Below the pieces are notes generated by a model that worked only from the letters and a program-made list of their open reading frames with translations, made no database searches and was not told where the DNA came from. The position numbers were made by a program, and so were the translations under genes. This document shows, one piece after another, positions 3,658 to 62,697 of a DNA stretch of 64,000 nt (position 1 is its first letter; each line of letters begins with the position of its first letter). The stretch is from positions 124,001 to 188,000 of the forward strand of contig CALXMP010000005.1 of NCBI GenBank assembly GCA_944389505.1. Direction: 5' to 3'. Source of the DNA: an uncultured Spirochaetaceae bacterium. GTDB lineage: Bacteria > Spirochaetota > Spirochaetia > Sphaerochaetales > Sphaerochaetaceae.

Positions 3658-4286
3658 TCGAGGAAATAGGAACGGTGAAGGAGGTCCGCCACGGTCATCG
3701 TTCTGCCACAGTGACTATCTGGGCTGAGAAGGTCCTTCTTGGGACATCGATAGGAGATAGCATCGCGGTCAACGGTGTATGCCTGACTGTAATAGCGATG
3801 GATGATGATTCCTTTTCAGCCGATGCGACTCCAGAGACGATATCAAGGTCATCGCTGGGGCAGATGCATAGAGGAAGCAGGGTGAACCTGGAACGTGCCA
3901 TGGCCGCTGATGGCCGGTTCGGAGGCCATATAGTCATGGGCCATATCGATGGGATAGGGAAGGTATCCAGGGTAATTAAGGATGATAACTCTGTTCTGCT
4001 TTCCATCGAGGCGCCCCCTGCTCTCATGCGCTATATCGTTGAGAAGGGATCGATAGCCATCGATGGCATAAGCCTTACTGTAGCGAAGGTCTGGGAATCG
4101 GGGTTCACAGTTTCCGTTATCCCCCATACAGCTTCTGAAACGACTATCGGATGGATGGTGGCAGGGACAGCTGTGAATCTTGAGGCCGACATAATCGGGA
4201 AATACGCAGAGAAGTTCCTAATGCATGAGATCAGTCCCAGAAAGAAGGGAATAACGGCGGAGATGCTCTCCGAATATGGATTCTGA
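3642..4286 (+). CDS. ribE: Riboflavin synthase alpha chain
   Basis: This enzyme joins two molecules of 6,7-dimethyl-8-ribityllumazine to make riboflavin. The protein (214 residues) starts with the family hallmark [10 protein letters not shown] and contains two homologous lumazine-binding barrels (about 1-97 and 98-195), each with a VNLERA/VNLEAD-like motif; the first also has the [11 protein letters not shown] block, the second [11 protein letters not shown]. It starts inside the end of ribD (16-base overlap) and ends just upstream of the ribBA ribosome binding site. Control by the FMN riboswitch is expected for the whole operon. Confidence 0.96.
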
Positions 4287-4299
4287 AGAGGAGGAGATG

Positions 4300-5490
4300 A
4301 TGAATACAATAGAGGAAGCTCTTGAAGAGCTCAGGAAAGGCCATCTGATCATAGTGGCTGATGATCCCGACAGGGAGAATGAAGGCGATCTCATCTGTGC
4401 GGCAGAGCATGCCGATACAGCCAATGTCAATTTCATGGCGAAGTATGGCAAAGGACTTATATGCATGCCCATGGCCGAGAAGTTTGCCAGAAAGCTTATG
4501 ATCCCGAAGATGGTTGAGGTGAATACAGATAACCATGAGACGGCTTTTACCGTTTCGATTGACCATGTATCAACTTCGACGGGTATCTCCGCAGCTGAGC
4601 GTTCCATAACGGCAAAGGCCTGCGTTTCCGATGATGCCCGCCCAGAGGATTTCAGACGTCCAGGGCATATGTTCCCGCTTATAGCAAAAGCAGGAGGCGT
4701 ACTTGAACGCGGAGGACATACTGAGGCAACCGTTGATCTGATGAGACTTGCAGGACTAAAGGAATGCGGGCTCTGCTGCGAGATTATGGACGATGATGGC
4801 TATATGATGCGTGCTGCGGGACTGAGGGAATTCGCTGAACATCATGGTCTTAAGTACATCACGATTGAGGACATCAAGGAGTACAGGAAGGTCCACGATA
4901 AGCTTGTGGACAGGGCAGCTACCGCAAAGCTTCCTACGAAATATGGCGAATTCACTGCATATGGCTATGTCAACCGTCTCAACGGAGAGCACCATGTCGC
5001 GCTTGTCATGGGAGAGATCGGCGATGGCAGGGACATGCTCTGCAGAGTGCACTCAGAATGCCTGACAGGTGATGTCTTCGGTTCGCTCCGCTGTGACTGC
5101 GGTGACCAGCTTGCTGCAGCAATGACCATGATTGCCAAGGAGGGCCGTGGAATCCTTCTGTACATGAGGCAGGAGGGCCGCGGCATAGGCCTGATAAACA
5201 AGCTCAGAGCGTATGAGCTCCAGGAGAAGGGAATGGATACCCTTGATGCGAATATCGCTCTTGGCTTTGAGGCAGACCAGAGGGAGTACTTCATTGGAGC
5301 GCAGATACTCAGGGACTTAGGTGTGAAGAGCATGAGACTGCTTACGAACAATCCCGATAAAGTCTACCAGCTCTCTGAGTTCGGTATAGAGATAACAAAA
5401 CGTGTTCCGATCCAGATTCCTGCGACTGAATATGATCAGAGATATCTGGAGACGAAGCGTGATCGCATGGGACATATTCTCGATTGCTAG
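4300..5490 (+). CDS. ribBA: Bifunctional DHBP synthase/GTP cyclohydrolase II
   Basis: The N-terminal half (about 1-200) is 3,4-dihydroxy-2-butanone-4-phosphate synthase with the acidic [11 protein letters not shown] motif. The C-terminal half (about 205-396) is GTP cyclohydrolase II with the zinc site [15 protein letters not shown] and the RQEGRGIGL motif. Together they make both precursors that enter lumazine synthesis. An ATG at 4276 overlaps ribE, but an AGGAGG site at 4289-4294 points to ATG 4300 (or 4297), giving the usual start MNTIEEAL. The length (396) matches the fused family. It is the third gene of the riboflavin operon. Confidence 0.95.
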
Positions 5491-52397: not shown

Positions 52398-53543
52398 ATG
52401 AAAGGACTTTGCGTCTACATTAAGGCAGGGAAGGGACATTACGTTCCTGCCAAAGCCGTGCATGAGCAGCTGGAAGCCATGGGTATGGATTCCGAGCTTG
52501 TGGACTTCTTCAGCTATCTCGATCTTGAGTGGATGGAGCGGCTGAATCAGGGAATGTGGCGGCTTATGCTCAAAATTCCATTCCTTGAGGAGCATCTCTT
52601 CAGGTCTCTTGATCGTTCAGGATGGGGAATAAAGCTTGTTGAGAAGTCAATCGACAGGCTGAGGCGGAAGAAGCTGGCTTCACTTATCAGCACATCTCGC
52701 CCCGATTTCATATTCGCTACCCATCCGTATCCGGGGACAGTGCTGTCGACAATGCTTCACGATATGGGTGAGTATATACCTGTGTATTTCTACTCAACCG
52801 ATGTCTTCTCTGCCCCGGTAGTCTCAATCTGTCCTTATCTGAGGAAGTTCCTCCTCCCTACGGAGGAAGGTGTGGAGCGCGTGCGGGCCATGGGGCAGAA
52901 TCCTGATTCCATCATGCTCTGTCCATTCCCCCTCCAGGGATCCGTAGCAGATCAGCCAAAGCTTTCGAAGAGGGAGGCAAGGAAGAGAATAGGGTTGGAT
53001 GAGGATGCGTTCACGCTGCAGCTTAATCTTGGTGGAGAAGGGCTCGGTTCCCTTAATCTTCTTGAGGATATCCTGAAAGAAGATCTTCCTGTGCAGATAG
53101 TGATCATAGGAGGAATCCGAAAGGATATGGAGAGGCGTATCCGGAAGGTGATGGAACAATACAGAGGTGGAAGATCTTCCGTGCAGATCCGCGGCTTTGT
53201 CGATAATGTCAGCGAATATCTTGCTGCTTCGGATGTCATAGCGGGAAGGGCTGGCATCAATACTATAGTCGAAGCAATATATGCGCATAGGCCGTTCTTG
53301 ATCACAGAGCTTGTCTATATTGTCACGGCATCTGCTGAATATATTGAGAAGTATGGCGTAGGGTGGAATGCCACAGGGGATAGGGAGAAGCAGATAGGTA
53401 TTATCCGCGATCTGGTTTCCAATCCTGACAAGCTGGAAAGGATATCCTCTGCGTTCGATGCTGTGCCTATTGAGTATAGCGCAAGGCACCTTGCCCAGAT
53501 GGTTGCTATGGATGCTGCTTCCTATGCGGAGGAGAGATTATGA
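52398..53543 (+). CDS. Glycosyltransferase family 28-like, MGDG-synthase type
   Basis: The 381-residue protein resembles the MurG/monogalactosyl-diacylglycerol synthase family. The N-terminal domain has KAGKGHYVPAKAVHEQLE, the acceptor-side GHxxxA motif. The C-terminal sugar-nucleotide domain has QIRGFVDNVSEYLAASDVIAGRAGINTIVEAI, the glycosyltransferase-28 signature. Members add a sugar to diacylglycerol; spirochaetes without LPS are known to use such glycolipids, which fits. The sugar and lipid are unproven. It overlaps the DUF3089 gene by 4 bases (ATGA), so the two are translationally coupled. Confidence 0.85.
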   Translation: MKGLCVYIKAGKGHYVPAKAVHEQLEAMGMDSELVDFFSYLDLEWMERLNQGMWRLMLKIPFLEEHLFRSLDRSGWGIKLVEKSIDRLRRKKLASLISTSRPDFIFATHPYPGTVLSTMLHDMGEYIPVYFYSTDVFSAPVVSICPYLRKFLLPTEEGVERVRAMGQNPDSIMLCPFPLQGSVADQPKLSKREARKRIGLDEDAFTLQLNLGGEGLGSLNLLEDILKEDLPVQIVIIGGIRKDMERRIRKVMEQYRGGRSSVQIRGFVDNVSEYLAASDVIAGRAGINTIVEAIYAHRPFLITELVYIVTASAEYIEKYGVGWNATGDREKQIGIIRDLVSNPDKLERISSAFDAVPIEYSARHLAQMVAMDAASYAEERL

Positions 53544-54508
53544 GGAATATAAGGCGCTTTCTGCTTTCCTTCATGCTGCTAGCCATGGTCTTCCAGGTCT
53601 ATGCCGGAACCATTGTCGACTATTCCGACAGGTCGAACTGGGCATACTTTGCAGAAGGGACCGGAAAGGATGCAGATCTCTTTATCATCTGCCCGACTGT
53701 CGATCTAGGCAGGGCTGGCAATTTCAATATGAGCATGGATGATGAGGCTATGAAGAAGAGCTTCGTCGGTGCACTCAATATGGAGAGGGGGATATATGAG
53801 GATTCTGCGCTGCTGTATGCTCCATTCTACAGGCAGATGACATTCCCTCTCTATGAAGGAACGGAGGAGGCGATGCAGCCCTATCTCTCGATTGCCTATG
53901 GCGATGTGAGGGATGCGTTCATCTATTATATGGAAAATGAAAATGATGGACGTCCTTTGATTCTTGCGGGGTTCTCCCAGGGGGCACAGCTAGCTCTGAT
54001 GCTTCTTGAGGAGTTCTTCGATGAGGCTGAATACAGCGATAAGCTCATTGCCGCATACTGCATAGGCTGGAGGATCACAGAGGAGGATCTCGAGGAGTAT
54101 CCTCACCTGAGGATGGCCGAGGGGGAGAGCGATACTGGCGTCATAGTCTCATTCAACACTGAATCCCCTGCCTCAAATGGATCGATAATCGTTCCTGAGG
54201 GCATAAGGACGATAGGCATAAATCCCCTGAACTGGAGTACCGAATCTGAATTTGCTGACCGCTCGCTGAATGCAGGAGCATGCTTCACGGATTATTCCGG
54301 GAGTATAACCAAAGAGATTCCAAAGCTGACAGGCGCTTATCTGGATCCGGAGAGAGGAACGCTCAAGGCTGTCGATGTTGATCCAGCCGATTATTCGAAT
54401 TCGCTCTTCCCAGATGGGGTGTACCATCTCATGGATTATCAGTTCTTCTACAGGAATCTCCAGGAGAATGTCAGAGTGCGTACTGATGCATGGCTTTCTG
54501 CTTCATGA
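53540..54508 (+). CDS. Exported DUF3089-family alpha/beta-hydrolase-like protein
   Basis: The 322-residue protein has a signal peptide (RNIRRFLLSFMLLAMVFQVYA, cleavage after VYA). The mature part matches DUF3089: NWAYFAEGTGKDADLFIICPTVDLGRAGNFNM, RQMTFPLYEGTEEA, LAYGDVRDAFIYYM-like sequence and the nucleophile elbow GFSQGAQL (Ser about 146). The predicted role is an esterase or lipase outside the cytoplasm. Coupling to the glycolipid-type transferase suggests action on envelope lipids or acyl groups, but this is inference. Confidence 0.82.
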   Translation: MRNIRRFLLSFMLLAMVFQVYAGTIVDYSDRSNWAYFAEGTGKDADLFIICPTVDLGRAGNFNMSMDDEAMKKSFVGALNMERGIYEDSALLYAPFYRQMTFPLYEGTEEAMQPYLSIAYGDVRDAFIYYMENENDGRPLILAGFSQGAQLALMLLEEFFDEAEYSDKLIAAYCIGWRITEEDLEEYPHLRMAEGESDTGVIVSFNTESPASNGSIIVPEGIRTIGINPLNWSTESEFADRSLNAGACFTDYSGSITKEIPKLTGAYLDPERGTLKAVDVDPADYSNSLFPDGVYHLMDYQFFYRNLQENVRVRTDAWLSAS

Positions 54509-54579
54509 TATCTCCATCCGTGGATATATGTCCGTGCTATAGGTTTTCTGCTATACTTTGAAAATATACGGAGGACGCA

Positions 54580-56025
54580 TTGGATATTCTGAAGCAGCTG
54601 AAGGAAGTCACTATATCTGTATTGCCGATAGCTGTGTTCGCTTCTGTCTTGTCGCTGCTGCTTGGAGTGATGGATGGCGGTGAATTCAGGATGTTTATAG
54701 TTTCCTGCGTATTTGTGATAGCTGGCCTTACCATCTTCCTCACCGGCGCTGATGTCGGACTCCTGCCTATGGGAACAAGGATCGGTACGACTCTTACGAA
54801 AAGCAGGTCCCTTCCGATTCTGCTTGCTGTCGCGGCAATCCTTGGATTCATAATCACAGTCCCTGAGCCGGATGTCCAGGTCCTTGCTTCACAGGTAAAC
54901 CAGATCAGCAATGATATTCCCATACCGGTCTTCATATGCGCAATCGCGGTCGGAGTAGGCATTTTCCTGGCGCTTTCGCTCGCGAGGACGATATTGTCAC
55001 TTCCGCTGAAGGTGATTCTATTCATCGGCTACATAGTCATATTCTCATGCGCACTCTTCTGCGATGGCTTCTTCGTTTCGGTTGCATTCGATTCAGGCGG
55101 TGCTACGACTGGACCGCTTTCCGTTCCATTCATAATGGCAATCGGAATGGGTGTTGCATCGATGAGGAAGCACTCTGAGGAATCTGAGTTCGGATACGTA
55201 GCTATGGCATCGATTGGTCCTGTGCTTGCAGTTCTTATACTGGGAATCATATACGGGTCGGGCGGCAGCATGCCTGATACGGCGGAGACATCTGCCGATA
55301 TAAAACTTCTTACGCTGTTTGGAGAGAAGCTTAGCGGTGTCGGGATGTCCTTCTTCCCTTTGCTTATCGTATGCATCCTTATGCAGATCTTCTTCATAAA
55401 GATGCCGCACACGCAGGCTATCAGGGTATTCGTAGGTATTTTCTATTCATTTGTTGGACTTGTCATATTCTTCACAGGTGTTGAATACTCATTCTCCGAT
55501 GTAGCAAAGGAGCTTGGAGTCGCGCTTGCAGATCATCCAGTCCTCCTTTATTCATCCGGTTTCATATTCGGTCTCTGTGTTGTGCTTGCTGAGCCAGCGG
55601 TAATCGTCCTTACTGGTCAGGTTGAGGAGATAAGCGGGGGGCATATCCGCAAGCCGATAATGCTTGCTGCCCTCTGTCTTGGTGTCGGTCTTGCTGTTGT
55701 CCTTGCTCTGATCAGGACCGTATATTCCCTCCCGATCCTTCTCTTCCTTGTCCCAGGATATATCCTGATAATGGTCTCAATGATATGGACGCCTGGGCTC
55801 TTTTCTGCAATCGCTTTTGATTCAGGCGGGGTCGCGACAGGCCCGATGAGCTCGACATTCCTGCTTCCCCTTGCTATCGGGGCAGCTTCGGGGACGGCTT
55901 CTGCCTCCCTTGCATCATCGTTCGGCATGATTGCGATGATTGCGATGATGCCGATTCTCCTCATTGAGATTCTCGGTATAGTCTATAAAGCACGGCTCAG
56001 GAAGGCCGAAAGGGGTGGAAGATGA
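54580..56025 (+). CDS. DUF1538-family membrane protein, internally duplicated
   Basis: The 481-residue protein is two homologous membrane units of about 235 residues each (DUF1538). Matching motifs are PEPDVQVLASQV (95-106) with AEPAVIVLTGQV (337-348), and FDSGGATTGP (170-179) with FDSGGVATGP (413-422). The acidic and Gly-rich motifs in the helices suggest ion or solute transport. I recall a report of a paired DUF1538 system as a cation/proton antiporter in Halomonas (UmpAB); I could not check it here. TTG 54580 follows GGAGG. It overlaps the tandem PII-like gene by 4 bases, which implies direct regulation. Confidence 0.85.
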   Translation: MDILKQLKEVTISVLPIAVFASVLSLLLGVMDGGEFRMFIVSCVFVIAGLTIFLTGADVGLLPMGTRIGTTLTKSRSLPILLAVAAILGFIITVPEPDVQVLASQVNQISNDIPIPVFICAIAVGVGIFLALSLARTILSLPLKVILFIGYIVIFSCALFCDGFFVSVAFDSGGATTGPLSVPFIMAIGMGVASMRKHSEESEFGYVAMASIGPVLAVLILGIIYGSGGSMPDTAETSADIKLLTLFGEKLSGVGMSFFPLLIVCILMQIFFIKMPHTQAIRVFVGIFYSFVGLVIFFTGVEYSFSDVAKELGVALADHPVLLYSSGFIFGLCVVLAEPAVIVLTGQVEEISGGHIRKPIMLAALCLGVGLAVVLALIRTVYSLPILLFLVPGYILIMVSMIWTPGLFSAIAFDSGGVATGPMSSTFLLPLAIGAASGTASASLASSFGMIAMIAMMPILLIEILGIVYKARLRKAERGGR

Positions 56026-56621
56026 AGTGGCATACGATGATAGCTATTGTCGGCCGCGGCCAGGCTGATAAAGTCATGGCTGCTGCAAGGGAAGCCGGTG
56101 CTCCCGGTGGCACCATATGCAATGCACGCGGGACGGCCTCCAGCTCCATCCTGGCAGCTCTCGGACTGGGGGATACGAGGAAGGAAGTACTTTTCAGCGT
56201 AATAAGCAGGGGCAATCCGGATGCTATCCTTTCAGCTGTGCATAACGTGAAGGCCAAAGGTGTCGTGATGATGACCGATGCAGTGGTCGATGAGGATTAC
56301 GAGGAGGGGAAGATGGATTATAAATGGGTGCTTATAGAGGTGATCTGCGAAGAGGGCTACAGTGAGGATATCATGGTGACAGCCAGGAAGGCAGGCGCTT
56401 CCGGCGGTACCGTCATCAATGCCCATGGAACAAGCACAGAAGATGATGTGAAGTTCTTCGGAGCCCCTCTGGTTCCTGAGAAGGAAATCCTCATGATCGT
56501 GATGGAGAAGGAGAAGGCCGACAGCGTTGTCGAGGCAATCAGTTCCATGGAGATCCTGAAGAAGAAGGGAATGGGGATAATATTCAGCATCCCTGTCAGA
56601 ACATTCTCTAATCTTGGATGA
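56022..56621 (+). CDS. Tandem PII-like regulatory protein coupled to DUF1538
   Basis: The 199-residue protein contains two PII-like units in one chain (about 1-95 and 100-199). Each has the GGT-loop: GAPGGTICNARGT (27-39) and GASGGTVINAHGT (125-137). Classical GlnB has one such unit per chain and works as a trimer; two fused units would assemble differently or give a pseudo-trimer. PII domains bind ATP, ADP, AMP or small anions and control a partner. The partner here is the DUF1538 protein, whose gene it overlaps by 4 bases. The ligand is unknown, and the tyrosine-uridylylation site of GlnB is absent. Confidence 0.85.
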   Translation: MKWHTMIAIVGRGQADKVMAAAREAGAPGGTICNARGTASSSILAALGLGDTRKEVLFSVISRGNPDAILSAVHNVKAKGVVMMTDAVVDEDYEEGKMDYKWVLIEVICEEGYSEDIMVTARKAGASGGTVINAHGTSTEDDVKFFGAPLVPEKEILMIVMEKEKADSVVEAISSMEILKKKGMGIIFSIPVRTFSNLG

Positions 56622-57698
56622 TCATCCGCTCTGGCGGCTTATCAGCTCCCATCGGAGCAGTACCGATTCTGCTGCAGTCCCTTCAAGCATCTTCAGAAGA
56701 AGCTCTGCCGCAGCGATTCCGCTTCTAGGGGCCTTATGTCCGAGCGAGGTTATAGGGACGGAACCTATCTGGCTGTAGAAGCTGTTGTCGAAGCTTACAA
56801 CCGCGATATCATCAGGGATTGTCCTTCCGCGCCTGAGAAGGTGCTGTATAGCAGAATATGCTATCTCATCGTTGTAGCAGACAAGCGCAGTCGCATCCCC
56901 AAGCCGTTCATCGATGAATCTGCTCAGCTTTGTTTCCTCCATCAGGTCCCCTGACAATATATCCTTCCTGTCCTCCGTATCGTACCAGCAGAATCTGCTG
57001 TCATCGATCCGTATCTGGGAATCGGTCATCGCTGAAGTGACGCCGTAGTATCTTTCAGGCCCCTGTGAATCATCGCTCTTGAATATTCCCGCTATCCGCG
57101 TATGGCCTTTTCCGATCAGGTACTTTCCAAGCTGGTAGCCTCCACCGACGTTGTCATCGAGCACTGAAGGGAATCCTGGGAGATTGCTGTACTTCCCATG
57201 TAGGAAGAGTACCGGTATCCCACGCTTCCGGAGGCAGGTGAAGAGCGATGTGTTAGGGGTAGGGTATGCTGTCCTGGATCCTTCGATGAGTATCGCATCT
57301 ATCTCCCTGTAAAGGAGCTCTGATAGTATCTCATTCTCCTTGCCGACACTGTTCTCCGTTGTGTAGACAAGTGTAGAGTATCCATGGTCGGAAAAGATCC
57401 TCTGCGCATCATGGAGTATTGAAGGGAAGATATAGTCATCGATGAATGTTGTCACGACAGCGATATGATTCGAGCTATGTACTGGTCTTGCGGGATTGAT
57501 ATACGATCCGCTTCCCTGCCGTCTTTCGATAAGGCCTTCGTCCTCAAGTTCCTTTAGCGCACTTCTGACGGTCTGCCTGCTTACGCTGTAGGATGCGGCA
57601 ATCTCCATCTCTGTCGGAAGTCTGCTTCCTCCTTCCTCCTGTATCTTTCCGGCATCGCGCCTCAGCATGTCAGCAAGCTGCTTGTATTTAGCTGGCAT
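56622..57698 (-). CDS. AraR-like GntR/LacI chimeric repressor
   Basis: The 358-residue protein joins a GntR-type winged helix (about 1-70: KYKQLADMLRRDAGKIQEEGG, LPTEMEIAASYSVSRQTVRSALKELEDEGLIERRQGSGSYI) to a LacI/periplasmic-binding ligand domain (about 78-358). The ligand domain holds HIAVVTTFIDDYIFPSI, FPSVLDDNVGGGYQLGKYLI and PDDIAVVSFDNS. This is the architecture of the arabinose repressor AraR. ATG 57698 follows AAGGAGGGG; the longer frame to 57902 lies over the operator region. It is divergent from the ABC operon and shares its control region, so it very likely regulates the transporter and itself. The ligand, an arabinose-like sugar, is inferred. Confidence 0.88.
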   Translation of the reverse strand: MPAKYKQLADMLRRDAGKIQEEGGSRLPTEMEIAASYSVSRQTVRSALKELEDEGLIERRQGSGSYINPARPVHSSNHIAVVTTFIDDYIFPSILHDAQRIFSDHGYSTLVYTTENSVGKENEILSELLYREIDAILIEGSRTAYPTPNTSLFTCLRKRGIPVLFLHGKYSNLPGFPSVLDDNVGGGYQLGKYLIGKGHTRIAGIFKSDDSQGPERYYGVTSAMTDSQIRIDDSRFCWYDTEDRKDILSGDLMEETKLSRFIDERLGDATALVCYNDEIAYSAIQHLLRRGRTIPDDIAVVSFDNSFYSQIGSVPITSLGHKAPRSGIAAAELLLKMLEGTAAESVLLRWELISRQSG

Positions 57699-57738
57699 TT
57701 CCCCTCCTTTTTTTATTAGGATATCATCAGATTGAAAT

Positions 57739-57869
57739 ATTTGTATTAATTTTACAAAATTTATGAGAATTTGTATTAAAATCGTAAAGTCGAACAATGT
57801 GTTTGATCTGTTCACTTCATTAATCCGTATTATTTGTATTGAAATTCTCATAATGTATGAATTTGTATT
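57739..57869. promoter_or_regulatory. Operator-like array between the AraR-like gene and ytfQ
   Basis: ATTTGTATT occurs four times: 57739-57747, 57769-57777, 57832-57840 and 57861-57869 (spacings 30, 63 and 29, close to whole helical turns). The first is part of the palindrome TTTGTA-N7-TACAAA (57740-57758). In addition, TTATGAGAATTT (57761-57772) and AAATTCTCATAA (57842-57853) form a long-range 12-bp inverted repeat. AraR of Bacillus uses similar ATTTGTAC/GTACAAAT sites with looping. The 287-base divergent gap (57699-57985) holds this array and the ytfQ promoter. Confidence 0.7.
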
Positions 57870-57908
57870 CATCCCAGCTCGTTTTTTAGGCAGGAAGAGC
57901 AAAATTCA

Positions 57909-57937
57909 TTGACAGATGAAAATTCCCATGCTCCAAT
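57909..57937 (+). promoter_or_regulatory. ytfQ operon promoter
   Basis: Perfect TTGACA (57909-57914), a 17-base spacer and TCCAAT (57932-57937), 49 bases before ATG 57986, just downstream of the fourth operator-like site. Confidence 0.65.
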
Positions 57938-57985
57938 TTTTTTAGATATCGGGAATTCCGATAACACAAAAAGAGAGGTTAGAAT

Positions 57986-58960
57986 ATGAAAAAGGTTTTG
58001 CTTTCACTCCTTGTACTCATTCTGTCCGTATCCGCAGTATTCGCTCAGGGCGCTGCTGAGGCATCCGGATCGGATAGTGGTCTCATCAGAGTTGGTATCA
58101 TCAATAATGACCCGAACGAATCGGGATACCGCACAGCAAATGATGCAGATCTGAAGAGAGTATTCAATGAGGAGAATGGTTATGACGCATCGTTCTATTA
58201 CAGCCTCAGGAATGATGAGCAGATCGCAGCTGCACAGCTCTTCATCCAGGATGGCGTTGATTACCTTCTTCTTTCCGCTGCTGGTACAGCAGGTTGGGAT
58301 TCCGTTCTCCAGGATGCATATGATGCCGGTATCTATGTAATCCTCTTTGATCGCACAGTCGATGCAGATCCAAGCTTGTATGTTGCTGAGGTTGTCTCCG
58401 ATACTAACCTCCAGGGACAGACAGCTGTTGACTGGCTCGTTTCCCAGAATCTTGATGAATACAACATCATCCATATCCAGGGCGTCATGGGATCATCTGC
58501 TCAGATTGGAAGAACAACTGCCCTTGATGAGATGGTTGCAAGCAATGACAACTGGAAGCTCGTGACACAGCAGACAGCTGAATGGAATGCAGAGACAGCA
58601 CAGCAGATCACGCAGGCTGTCATCGATTCCGGCGAGCCGTTCAATGTCATCTATGCTGAGAATGACGATATGGCAAGAGGCGCAGTAGCTGCTCTCGACA
58701 GAGCCAACATCTCCCATGGCGTCGATGGTGATGTCATAATCATGGGCTTCGACTGCAACAAGTGGGCTCTTGAGGAGCTTCTTGCTGGCAGATGGAACTA
58801 TGATGGCCAGGCCAATCCGTTCCAGGCAGATACAATCGATGGAATCATCAGGAATCTTGAGAATGGCATAGAGCCAGAGAGCAAGACAATCTACCTTGTC
58901 GAGCAGGGCTTCGATGCAGCTACAATCACTCAGGAAGACGTTGATAAGTACGGAATCTGA
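57986..58960 (+). CDS. ytfQ: Sugar ABC transporter substrate-binding protein, YtfQ-like
   Basis: An exported periplasmic-binding protein (324 residues). A signal peptide (MKKVLLSLLVLILSVSAVFA) is followed by a type-1 sugar-binding fold: VGIINNDPNESGYRTANDADLKRVF, FIQDGVDYLLLSAAGTAGWDSVL, VILFDRTVDAD, IIHIQGVMGSSAQIGRTTALDEM and VIYAENDDMARGAVAALDRA. The two-permease, one-ATPase context and the sequence style are those of YtfQ, which binds galactofuranose; close relatives bind arabinofuranose. With an AraR-like repressor next door, a furanose pentose is a good candidate, but the specificity is not shown. Confidence 0.9.
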   Translation: MKKVLLSLLVLILSVSAVFAQGAAEASGSDSGLIRVGIINNDPNESGYRTANDADLKRVFNEENGYDASFYYSLRNDEQIAAAQLFIQDGVDYLLLSAAGTAGWDSVLQDAYDAGIYVILFDRTVDADPSLYVAEVVSDTNLQGQTAVDWLVSQNLDEYNIIHIQGVMGSSAQIGRTTALDEMVASNDNWKLVTQQTAEWNAETAQQITQAVIDSGEPFNVIYAENDDMARGAVAALDRANISHGVDGDVIIMGFDCNKWALEELLAGRWNYDGQANPFQADTIDGIIRNLENGIEPESKTIYLVEQGFDAATITQEDVDKYGI

Positions 58961-58984
58961 TCATAGATATCAGAGATAGTAGAT

Positions 58985-59027
58985 GCAAGGCACGAAGGAG
59001 CATTAGGATGCAGTCCGCGTGCCTTGC
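58985..59027 (+). promoter_or_regulatory. Intercistronic hairpin between ytfQ and ytfR
   Basis: A perfect 10-bp stem GCAAGGCACG/CGTGCCTTGC with a 23-base loop, followed by only a weak T-containing stretch. It probably protects the ytfQ 3' end or partly terminates, so the binding protein is made in excess over the rest of the transporter. Confidence 0.65.
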
Positions 59028-59057
59028 TGTGTTTCTGGCAAAAGGAAGGTTATTGGG

Positions 59058-60566
59058 ATGCAGAAGGATTCTGTTCTTGAAATGAGGGGAATCTATAAGA
59101 CTTTCTATAGCGTAAAGGCTCTGCAGAATGTCGATTTCACGCTCAGGGAAGGTGAGATACATGCTTTGATGGGTGAGAATGGCGCAGGCAAGTCAACGCT
59201 GATAAAAGTTCTTACAGGTGTTTATTCCAAGGATGCAGGACAGGTATTCCTCAAAGGACATGAGGGACCGATCAGCATCAGATCCCCGGAAGAGGCCCAG
59301 AAGGCAGGTATAAGCACCGTTTATCAGGAAATCACTCTCTGTCCGAATCTCACGGTAGCGGAGAATATGTATATTGGGCGCAGCAAGGGTATTCTGACGA
59401 ACTGGCATAAGATGAATGCCGCTGCGGATAAGATTCTTGAGTCGCTTGGTATTCCGGCAAAGGCGGAGCAGCAGCTTGGTTCCTGCTCAATAGCTGTGCA
59501 GCAGATGGTGGCAATCGCCAGAGCTGTCGATATGGAGTGCAAGGTCCTCATCCTTGATGAGCCTACATCATCGCTCGATGAGTCCGAGGTTGCAAAGCTT
59601 TTCCGTCTCATGCTTGATCTCAAGGCACGCGGGGTTGGAATCATCTTTGTTACTCACTTCCTAGATCAGGTATATGAGGTCTGCGACAGGATAACGGTTC
59701 TCCGCGATGGACAGCTTGTCGGCGAGTATGCAATAGAGAATCTGCCTCGTGTTGAGCTTGTATCCAAGATGCTTGGCAAGGATCTCGATGATCTTTCGGA
59801 GATCAAGAGCGGCGATGAAGAGGCTAATATCGGAAGCGAGATCGTATATGAGGCCGATGAGCTTTCAAGTGTCGCAGCGAGATTCCCATTCCATTTCTCA
59901 ATCCATAAAGGCGAGGTCAATGGCTTTACAGGACTTCTTGGATCGGGACGCAGCGAATGCGTACGTGCTATATTCGGTGCTGATAAGGTCACCGGCGGCA
60001 AGGTCCGGATCGATGGCAAGGATATCCATATAAAGAAGCCCAGAGACGCTATGAAGCATGGTATAGGATATCTTCCTGAGGACAGGAAGAGGGATGGTAT
60101 AGTCGGCGATCTCTCCGTCAGGGACAATATAATCCTTGCGCTTCAGGTTATGGAGGGATTCTTCGGACCTATATCGAAGGCCAAGGCCGAGAAGTTCGCT
60201 GATGAGTATATAAAGCTTCTTGAGATCAAGACAGCATCCACGGATACACCGATCAAGTCCCTTTCCGGAGGTAATCAGCAGAAGGTTATACTTGCAAGAT
60301 GGCTTCTGACGAATCCTCAGTATCTCATCCTCGATGAACCGACGAGGGGAATAGATATCGGAACAAAGATCGAGATCCAGAAGCTTGTGCTCAAGCTGGC
60401 AGGGGAAGGAAAGAGCGTTACCTTCATCTCCTCCGAGATCGATGAGATGCTCCGCACCTGCTCGCGTCTTATCGTCATGAGGGATGGAAAGGAAGTGGGA
60501 GAGCTTTCCGGAAGCGATCTTACTCAGAGCAAGGTTATGAGCACGATTGCAGGAGGTGCGAGATGA
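59058..60566 (+). CDS. ytfR: Sugar ABC transporter ATP-binding protein, YtfR-like
   Basis: A double ATPase (502 residues) driving furanose uptake. The first domain has ALMGENGAGKST (Walker A), the altered signature LGSCSIAVQQM and VLILDEPTSSL (Walker B). The second has FTGLLGSGRSE in place of a canonical Walker A, the intact signature LSGGNQQK, and YLILDEPTRGID. This asymmetry is usual for RbsA/YtfR-type carbohydrate ATPases. ATG 59058 is chosen after the AAAGGAAGG site at about 59041-59050; the longer frame from 59019 overlaps the hairpin. It ends 4 bases inside ytfT. Confidence 0.93.
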   Translation: MQKDSVLEMRGIYKTFYSVKALQNVDFTLREGEIHALMGENGAGKSTLIKVLTGVYSKDAGQVFLKGHEGPISIRSPEEAQKAGISTVYQEITLCPNLTVAENMYIGRSKGILTNWHKMNAAADKILESLGIPAKAEQQLGSCSIAVQQMVAIARAVDMECKVLILDEPTSSLDESEVAKLFRLMLDLKARGVGIIFVTHFLDQVYEVCDRITVLRDGQLVGEYAIENLPRVELVSKMLGKDLDDLSEIKSGDEEANIGSEIVYEADELSSVAARFPFHFSIHKGEVNGFTGLLGSGRSECVRAIFGADKVTGGKVRIDGKDIHIKKPRDAMKHGIGYLPEDRKRDGIVGDLSVRDNIILALQVMEGFFGPISKAKAEKFADEYIKLLEIKTASTDTPIKSLSGGNQQKVILARWLLTNPQYLILDEPTRGIDIGTKIEIQKLVLKLAGEGKSVTFISSEIDEMLRTCSRLIVMRDGKEVGELSGSDLTQSKVMSTIAGGAR

Positions 60567-61660
60567 CAATAGCTAAGACCGGAGAAGCCGGGCTCCTTAA
60601 GTCCGGAAGCATCTTCCGCAGGCAGATATTCATTCCTATCGCAGCCCTGCTTGCGCTTGTGCTGTTCAATCTGATCACGGATCCATCGTTCTTTGAGATC
60701 AATTACTCCCTCAATAGCGCTGGCGATCCTGTTCTTTCGGGATATCTTATAACGATACTCGACAATGCCTCTGAGCTTGCCATCCTTGCTATCGGAATGA
60801 CGCTGGTTACAGCTGCATCCGGAGGTCAGGATATAAGCGTCGGAGCTGCGATTGCCATAAGCGGAAGCGTGGTTCTGCGTGTTCTCTGCGGTGACAACCC
60901 GCGCCCAGAGGAGATGCAGGCCTCGATCCTCACAGCATTCCTTGTCAGCTGTGTTGTCTCGATGCTGTTCGGGGCATTCAATGGAACGCTTGTCGCATAT
61001 TTCAATATACAGCCGATGATCGCTACGCTGATTCTCTATACGGCAGGGCGCTCGATTGCAGCATGGATCAACAACAACCGCCTTCCGATCATCAGCGATC
61101 CTTCGTTCGGATATTTCGGGTCATTCCTTCCTGGTATACCGATACCGACCCCGATCTTCATAGCGATTATATGCATGATCATCATTGCGCTTGTGCTTAA
61201 GTTCACGACGCTCGGTCTCTATACGCAGGCTGTTGGAATAAACCCCCATTCTGCTAAGCTGAACGGTATCAATCCGGCATTCATAAAGTTCATCACATAT
61301 GTGATCATGGGCCTCTGCGTCGCTGTCGCAGGATTCATCAAAGTCACCAGGTTCTCTACGATCAACTACTCGGTCGTTGCTCTCGATATAGAGATGGATG
61401 CGATTCTTGCGGTCGCACTTGGAGGGAATGCGCTTTCTGGAGGCAAGTTCAGCATGGCCTCATCGATTCTCGGCGCGTATGTCATACAGTTCCTTACGAC
61501 AACACTCTTCAAGTTCAATGTCTCATCCAGCGCGCTCCCGGCTTATAAGGCGGTGGTAGTTATCATCCTTGTTGTCCTCAGCGCTCCTACTGTCAGGGAG
61601 AAGCTTGGCAAGGTCTGGAAGAGCATCCAGCATGCAAGAACCGGAAAGGAGGCTGCCTGA
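60563..61660 (+). CDS. ytfT: Sugar ABC transporter permease, YtfT-like
   Basis: An inner-membrane permease (365 residues, about 10 predicted helices) of the RbsC/YtfT family. It contains LAIGMTLVTAASGGQDISVGAAIAISG, FGAFNGTLVAYFNIQPMIATLILYTAGR and the QAVGINPHSAKLNGINPAFIKF cytoplasmic loop that contacts the ATPase. It overlaps ytfR by 4 bases and yjfF by 1 base (TGATG), so the three genes are translated together. It forms the channel with YjfF as a heterodimer. Confidence 0.92.
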   Translation: MTIAKTGEAGLLKSGSIFRRQIFIPIAALLALVLFNLITDPSFFEINYSLNSAGDPVLSGYLITILDNASELAILAIGMTLVTAASGGQDISVGAAIAISGSVVLRVLCGDNPRPEEMQASILTAFLVSCVVSMLFGAFNGTLVAYFNIQPMIATLILYTAGRSIAAWINNNRLPIISDPSFGYFGSFLPGIPIPTPIFIAIICMIIIALVLKFTTLGLYTQAVGINPHSAKLNGINPAFIKFITYVIMGLCVAVAGFIKVTRFSTINYSVVALDIEMDAILAVALGGNALSGGKFSMASSILGAYVIQFLTTTLFKFNVSSSALPAYKAVVVIILVVLSAPTVREKLGKVWKSIQHARTGKEAA

Positions 61661-62697
61661 TGAAGATCGGAGTTGATAAGAAAACCAGAAGACTTGCACC
61701 GATGTCAGACACGAATCTGCTTTTGACGATAACCATTGTCGTATTCTTCGTGATGTACATAGCTGCCATGCTTTTCATCGGAAGGGGATTCCTTCGTGTC
61801 CAGACATTCTTCAATATCCTGAATGAGAATGCTGCCCTCATAATCCTCTCATGCGGAATGAGCATTGTCATGATTGCCGGCGGTATCGATATATCTGTCG
61901 GAAAGCTTACCGCTCTCATATGCATGAGCGCCGCTGTCAATCTTGATTACCATGGCGGAAGCGTCATGAGCACTGTGCTCCTTTCGCTTGCAATCGGTCT
62001 GGCATTCGGTATTGTGCAGGGAGCACTTGTTGCCTTCCTTGATATACAGCCCTTCATCGTGACGCTCGCTGGAATGTTCTTTGCGAAGGGAATGACGACG
62101 ATAGTCAATTCAACCCAGTTCAACGTCCAGAATGAAGCATTCGTTGCACTGAAGAATACAAGGATCTATATCCCGTTCCTCGGCTCAGTGAACAGAAGGG
62201 GTGTATTCGTTCCTGCCTATGTTGAGATAGGAGTCGTAGTAGCGATTGTGACCGTCATCGTACTGTTCTTCATTCTGCGCTGGACGAAGCTTGGAAGGAG
62301 CTTTTATGCCGTAGGTGGAAATCCGCAGAGTGCTAACATGCTTGGCATCAATGTCAGGAAAACAAGATTCCTTTCGCACCTGCTCTGTGGTCTTCTCGCT
62401 GGTATCGGAGGTTTTGTCTACTTCCTCCATGTCGGCTCTGGTGCTCCTTCGCATGCTACAGGTGCGGAGATGAATGCAATTGCCTCATCGATCATAGGAG
62501 GCACGATGCTCACAGGAGGTGTCGGGAATATCATAGGGACATTCTTTGGTGTACTGTCGCTCAGCACAATCAAGAATATCGTCTCGCTTCTTGGCCTGGA
62601 TGATGCGTGGTGGACGAACATTACGGTAGCAGCAATGATCTGCATATTCCTTGTTGTACAGTCCGTCGTGCTTCTCAGGAAGAACAAGAACAGCTGA
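61660..62697 (+). CDS. yjfF: Sugar ABC transporter permease, YjfF-like
   Basis: The second permease (345 residues) has LSCGMSIVMIAGGIDISVGKLTALICMSAAV, FGIVQGALVAFLDIQPFIVTLAGMFFAKGMTTIV and the YAVGGNPQSANMLGINVRKTRF coupling loop. It is closest in layout to YjfF, the partner of YtfT. It starts on the ytfT stop codon (TGATG). A terminator follows the stop within 30 bases, closing the operon. Confidence 0.92.
   Translation: MKIGVDKKTRRLAPMSDTNLLLTITIVVFFVMYIAAMLFIGRGFLRVQTFFNILNENAALIILSCGMSIVMIAGGIDISVGKLTALICMSAAVNLDYHGGSVMSTVLLSLAIGLAFGIVQGALVAFLDIQPFIVTLAGMFFAKGMTTIVNSTQFNVQNEAFVALKNTRIYIPFLGSVNRRGVFVPAYVEIGVVVAIVTVIVLFFILRWTKLGRSFYAVGGNPQSANMLGINVRKTRFLSHLLCGLLAGIGGFVYFLHVGSGAPSHATGAEMNAIASSIIGGTMLTGGVGNIIGTFFGVLSLSTIKNIVSLLGLDDAWWTNITVAAMICIFLVVQSVVLLRKNKNS

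Follow-up and report, generated by a model that had tools for sequence, protein, structure and literature searches.

This locus raises the question whether a membrane protein of the DUF1538 family and the small PII-like protein whose gene overlaps its own make up one system, a transporter with a dedicated cytoplasmic regulator, and how the repeated units of both proteins are arranged. The window is the whole stretch of DNA that was analysed (64,000 nucleotides, from an uncultured Spirochaetaceae bacterium); the features of the gene pair are collected in Table 1.

Table 1 Features of the DUF1538 and PII-like gene pair. Positions are those of the window; TM, transmembrane helices; aa, amino acids.
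Feature	Position	Strand	Basis
DUF1538 two-unit (D1-D2) membrane protein, 481 aa, TTG start	54580..56025	+	Pfam PF07556 x2, ORF call
Unit D1 with linker, predicted 7 TM, predicted N-terminus in, C-terminus out	54580..55296	+	K/R loop bias, helix pattern
D1 motif E96-P97-D98, at helix break	54865..54873	+	Alignment A5, AlphaFold2 model
D1 motif FDSGGATTGP, second helix break	55087..55116	+	D171, G178 kept, all unit classes
Unit D2, predicted 7 TM, predicted inverted relative to D1, C-terminus cytoplasmic	55297..56022	+	K/R loop bias, identity to D1
D2 motif E338-P339-A340	55591..55599	+	E338, P339 invariant, 68 homologues
D2 motif FDSGGVATGP	55816..55845	+	D414, G421 invariant, 68 homologues
ATGA overlap (4 bp), both genes	56022..56025	+	Sequence
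PII-like protein, two PII units (P1-P2), 199 aa, ATG start	56022..56621	+	Pfam P-II (PF00543), two stretches
PII unit P1, more divergent	56022..56315	+	32% identity to P2; own clade in PII tree, 0.93
PII unit P2, more conserved; GGT..A.GT.., KFFG..PEKE, GxGxxF	56316..56618	+	Alignments
P2 B-loop equivalent GMGIIF, replacing GDGKIF	56568..56585	+	Profile alignment to solved PII structures

The gene pair, its linkage and its architectures

The larger protein contains two copies of PF07556 (386 bits; gathering cut-off 22.6), which are 33% identical over 224 columns (BLASTP, E 5e-33; profile-profile comparison, E 1.6e-43) and present one helix pattern twice in the AlphaFold2 model (pLDDT 91.6); its start codon is preceded, at 5 nt, by GGAGG (54570-54574). 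The smaller protein matches P-II in two stretches (49.8 bits; gathering cut-off 25); its two units, aligned over 84 columns (E 4e-13; profile-profile comparison, E 4.4e-25), are modelled as two ferredoxin-like PII units (AlphaFold2, pLDDT 90.3). The preliminary description of both proteins as internal duplications, encoded by genes that overlap by 4 bases, is thus borne out. On the same strand, a gene for a DUF3089 lipase-like protein (53540-54508) ends 71 bp 5' of the DUF1538 start; the stretch 56622-62697 holds a GntR/LacI-type regulator, divergent to an operon for a sugar ABC transporter with its binding protein, ATPase and two permeases.

Conservation of the pairing had been set beforehand as the test by which the proposed coupling could be refuted. 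The window's phylum (296 genomes, 84 of them positive for DUF1538) and Bacillota (249 genomes) were each searched for DUF1538 and with a tandem-PII profile, and strong PII matches in the window's phylum were counted by hand from the match tables. PII is present in 82/84 genomes with DUF1538 and 3/212 without it in the window's phylum, and in 83/84 and 1/165, respectively, in Bacillota (Fisher p ~9e-67 and ~2e-64, kinship being ignored in both); the pairing is near-universal, and natural fusions of the two proteins exist. In the first locus survey, the PII gene lies directly downstream on the same strand for 149 of 161 DUF1538 ORFs; the other 12 are mostly contig ends, a reading-frame artefact, or DUF1538-PII fusions, and three loci (L041, L049, L050) are truly without an adjacent PII gene, PII being encoded elsewhere in their genomes. 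Two genomes (G281, G295) have no PII beside DUF1538 and a two-unit PII elsewhere, and in genus g14 (G091, G291) a two-unit PII is found with DUF1538 absent from the genome; there, the PII gene (L193, L194) stands between genes for a Pfs-like nucleosidase and a biotin-ligase-like protein.

Plasmid records from Clostridia and Alphaproteobacteria also contain the pair, under the names DUF1538 and 'P-II family nitrogen regulator'; in Methylocystis and Chelativorans, DUF1538 is followed by a single-unit PII gene; and the DUF1538 family occurs in gut and host-associated anaerobes and also in halophiles. No consistent third operon gene was found among 93 same-strand neighbours (LuxS, 8/93; the rest scattered), and no relatives were found in viral contigs. 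LuxS near the pair, together with Pfs, hints at the methyl cycle and may only mirror kinship.

Architectures are written here with D for a DUF1538 unit, P for a PII unit and a slash for a gene border: D/P, 9 loci; D/D/P, 13 loci, plus 2 tandem; D/D/P/P, 4 loci; D/D/PP, 5 loci; DD/P/P, 5 loci; DD/PP (the window's type), 122 loci; long DD/PPP, 14 loci; PP/DDP, 5 loci. In PP/DDP, the transporter carries one fused PII unit at its C-terminus, with a gene for two PII units immediately upstream, so that this type and the PPP type alike carry three PII units per transporter; the five PP/DDP loci cluster in trees, and the fusion probably arose once. PII is coupled to the transporter across phyla and can be covalently joined to its C-terminus, which is predicted to be cytoplasmic.

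PII chains at DUF1538 loci carry one, two or three units. In the PII tree, the P1 units of DD/PP group in a single clade (0.93); a second clade (0.94), nested among the single-unit PIIs of D/D/P, unites the first units of D/D/PP and D/D/P/P; most PPP units branch apart. From this branching, the PII unit seems to have been multiplied at DUF1538 loci at least two times, probably three, with moderate evidence since single-domain trees are short. In the tree of DUF1538 units, fused D1 lies within separate-gene D1, fused D2 lies within separate-gene D2, and the single units form a clade of their own (0.99), which fits the order duplication, divergence, fusion that has been put forward for DUF606 (PMC3962082). 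By model scores, D1 is closer to UmpA models and D2 more UmpB-like; on these computations, D1 and D2 correspond to what other bacteria encode as two genes of umpA/umpB type, here fused.

These architectures bear on whether PII is instead a soluble metabolic regulator that acts on other targets and shares only its transcript with the transporter. The orphan two-unit PII beside Pfs and BirA (G091, G291) and the two-unit PII apart from DUF1538 in G281 would agree with such a role, which we nevertheless consider quite improbable, given that PII and transporter are fused in single chains, that their co-occurrence is near-perfect, and that PII units were multiplied independently at the same locus type.

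Probable orientation of the DUF1538 units and proposed ion exchange

Charge bias was counted as K+R in the N-terminus and loops 2-3, 4-5 and 6-7, minus those in the other loops and the C-tail; the idea of complementary charges came from the loops of the window protein and was written down, with the prediction for single units, before the family-wide count. Fused D1 units are positive in 122/122 homologues (+5.4) and fused D2 units negative in 122/122 (-8.0); the separate genes of split pairs in other lineages have the same signs (D1, +2.9, 26/26 positive; D2, -6.7, 26/26 negative); single-unit genes are near balance (-0.3, range -3 to +2) in a small sample of nine from one clade. When the loop margins were moved by -1 to +4, the signs of paired units were unchanged and the single units still stood at ~0. 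Both marks of inverted-pair membrane proteins, an odd number of TM helices per unit and opposite K/R bias in pairs, are thus found.

Seven being an odd number, end-to-end fusion inverts the second unit. From their opposite charge patterns, D1 and D2 should be inserted in the membrane in opposite orientations; the functional core would be an inverted pair, and the K/R-rich C-tail of D2 would be cytoplasmic. UmpA and UmpB are predicted to have 7 TM each, with long loops at III-IV in UmpA and II-III in UmpB (PMC5484666); these loops share one side of the membrane only if the two proteins are antiparallel, which favours an antiparallel pair. D1 and D2 are probably such a pair of 7-TM units, and the near-balanced charges support the single-unit genes as dual-topology candidates. 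Two parallel units, with the opposite charge pattern as a by-product of sequence drift, are very improbable: orientation is read from charge counts, and these are not independent since homologues are related by descent, but the sign is constant in every fused D1, reversed in every fused D2 and found again in all split pairs, the odd helix number forces inversion upon fusion, and the long loops of UmpA and UmpB (PMC5484666) become co-sided only in the antiparallel arrangement. Long DUF1538 proteins (630-750 aa; L089-L104) have ~80 extra residues in D2 after TM2, in the loop whose UmpB counterpart is also long.

Two motifs, xEPx and FDxGGxxxGP, are conserved best, and they coincide with two broken helices per unit in the AlphaFold2 model; plasmid-derived rows were left out of the input for structure prediction. 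E96 and P97 are invariant in alignment A5; across all unit classes, the E96 position is occupied by E or, in 9 split-D1 units, by D; whatever the class, almost all units retain E96, P97, D171 and G178; and the membrane acids, E96/D171 in D1 and E338/D414 in D2, are conserved across unit classes. Acids at helix breaks, as placed by the model, would suit a cation/H+ exchanger. Compared with the PDB, this large model (>400 residues) gave a best Foldseek match of E 0.017 and TM 0.11 and a best VIA-align match of Z 4.7, neither of them significant; matches to the EAAT and CLC folds were weak and were not trusted, and no new fold is claimed.

UmpAB of Halomonas zhaodongensis, the sole characterised DUF1538 pair found, is a hetero-dimeric Na+(Li+,K+)/H+ antiporter (PMC5484666); a cation/H+ antiporter is therefore more likely at this locus than the channel suggested preliminarily. 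In the same study, UmpAB was active in E. coli when cloned without a PII gene, so that PII would be dispensable for basal transport. A machine-learning study places DUF1538 among pH-adaptation genes (PMC13255231). Against the UmpA and UmpB equivalog models (NF041627 and NF041628), the window protein scores 128 and 113 bits, far below the cut-offs of 490 and 500, so that its substrate may differ and antiport is an extrapolation. In genome G295, a homologous two-unit PII gene (L192:3073-3717, +) immediately precedes a gene for an NhaC-type antiporter (3791-5362, +; PF03553, 4e-56), a neighbourhood that gives an independent hint of Na+/H+ exchange.

There is a minor but real chance that PII does regulate DUF1538 while the physiological substrate is not Na+/K+ but another cation, or a carboxylate with Na+; one family pair has been assayed so far (PMC5484666), the window protein lies far under both cut-offs, and members of the family occur not only in halophiles but also in gut and host-associated anaerobes. 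Speaking against another substrate are the E96/D171-type membrane acids in every unit class, the homologous PII adjoining NhaC in G295, and the choice of DUF1538 as a pH-adaptation gene by machine learning.

The PII units and the proposed control

The smaller protein belongs to the PII superfamily by Pfam score and fold: archaeal GlnK1-3 are among the best Foldseek matches of the pair model, and GlnB (5l9n) is matched with Z 8.3, rmsd 1.6 and 85 aligned. RND-pump porter domains, at the top of the VIA list for the pair (Z 9.9), share the ferredoxin-like two-unit arrangement and were set aside as not kin. The three-unit PII L098, partner of a long DUF1538 protein, gave no Pfam match at E 0.01.

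The PII fold is trimeric; in canonical GlnB and GlnK, the lysine of the B-loop GDGKIF contacts ATP, and Tyr51 in the long T-loop is the uridylylation site. When the family is aligned by profile with PII proteins of solved structure, its B-loop reads GxGxxF and the lysine is lost; the T-loop is ~5 residues shorter, and the Tyr51 segment is missing. The units are thus not canonical GlnB/GlnK; conserved instead are GGT..A.GT.., K.FG..PEKE and G.G..F. The absence of the GlnB modification site, pointed out in the preliminary description, holds by alignment only, and the nucleotide gating proposed with it is doubtful, the lysine being gone. Lacking both the ATP lysine and the modification site, these PII units probably read their ligand in another way than GlnB/GlnK do. 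In the window's genome, an Amt-PII fusion in one chain (PF00909 + PF00543; L105:2802-4697, - strand, contig C1) has GDGKIF intact; given this separate fusion with the canonical motif, a nitrogen-sensing role is unlikely for the DUF1538-linked PII.

AmtB and SbtA are already gated by PII partners, and the transporters of the reviewed PII-transporter pairs are trimeric (PMC10710835), so that an inverted-pair target would be exceptional unless the pairs assemble in threes. The three-unit PII chains and the 2+1 fusions are consistent with a PII trimer; the structure models cover single chains. The earlier suggestion that transporter and regulator were both fused as dimers stands for DUF1538, a probable antiparallel pair, and falls for PII, whose fold is trimeric and which comes with 1, 2 or 3 units per chain.

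Family membership, linkage, fusion, the inverted charge pattern and the loss of canonical PII residues are shown by computation. We regard as rather probable an antiporter resembling UmpAB, exchanging Na+(Li+,K+) for H+, with an inverted-pair core and a dedicated cytoplasmic PII regulator, for which we infer PII-transporter binding, ligand, direction of control and ion as follows. The PII units would assemble as trimers or pseudo-trimers at the cytoplasmic face; a small ligand would bind at the interfaces between PII units; PII, by docking on or leaving the transporter, would lock or release the cycle between inside-open and outside-open states; and Na+/K+/H+ exchange would thereby follow a metabolic signal. 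Chances appear about even for a wider reading, in which a PII ring, with units multiplied to 2-3 per chain several times at one locus type and with a non-canonical ligand, would gate a 7-TM family that is built on an inverted pair rather than a trimer and has all evolutionary stages present (dual-topology gene, gene pair, fused chain).

PII might also act as an assembly factor or structural subunit that stabilises the pairing of DUF1538 units, with no ligand-controlled gate. The canonical nucleotide residues are lost, and both the fusions and the chains of several units speak for a permanent complex; this role is improbable all the same, since the interface positions in GGT..A.GT.., PEKE and GxGxxF are conserved across classes, as for a ligand site, and since UmpAB is active in E. 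coli without PII (PMC5484666).

Relation to known systems and significance

DUF1538 and PII are already named in databases, and UmpAB is published. UmpAB and the window pair are alike in belonging to the DUF1538 family and in having two homologous 7-TM units, which in UmpAB are required together (PMC5484666); they differ in that the window's units are fused in one chain, score far below the equivalog cut-offs and are followed by a PII gene. The UmpAB study makes no mention of PII, and its passages considered here make none of inverted topology (PMC5484666). No paper tying DUF1538 to PII or giving it inverted topology was found in a literature search that lay mostly outside subscription journals.

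With GlnK-AmtB, the locus shares the PII fold and a small PII protein encoded beside a membrane transporter; there PII gates the transporter, whereas here it would do so, and the DUF1538-linked PII is without the uridylylation-site segment and the B-loop lysine and has a shorter T-loop, while its transporter is no Amt and would be built on an inverted pair. SbtB-SbtA likewise combines a PII-like partner with a secondary cation-coupled transporter and is controlled by ligand rather than uridylylation; SbtA, however, is a trimer, SbtB has one unit, a redox loop and another sequence, and no relation to DUF1538 was found. The units of DUF606, SMR (EmrE/EbrAB) and CrcB/Fluc have 3-5 TM; unlike DUF1538, these families are without 7-TM units and a PII partner. 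Like DUF1538, they include single unbiased, two-gene opposite-bias and fused forms within one family (PMC3962082). BB0017 (DUF2179), also from a spirochaete, is a membrane protein with a PII-like C-terminal domain (PMC6516651); its membrane part is YitT-type and not related to DUF1538.

If the proposal is true, a widespread antiporter family would join the short list of PII-controlled transporters, perhaps as the first that is not built on a trimer, and DUF1538 would be unusually large for a candidate family of dual-topology transporters. Since single, paired and fused forms of DUF1538 are all extant, the disputed route from dual topology to fused inverted repeat would be open to experiment. 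Two widespread gene names, 'DUF1538' and 'P-II family nitrogen regulator', the latter misleading, would also gain a suggested function in gut and host-associated bacteria.
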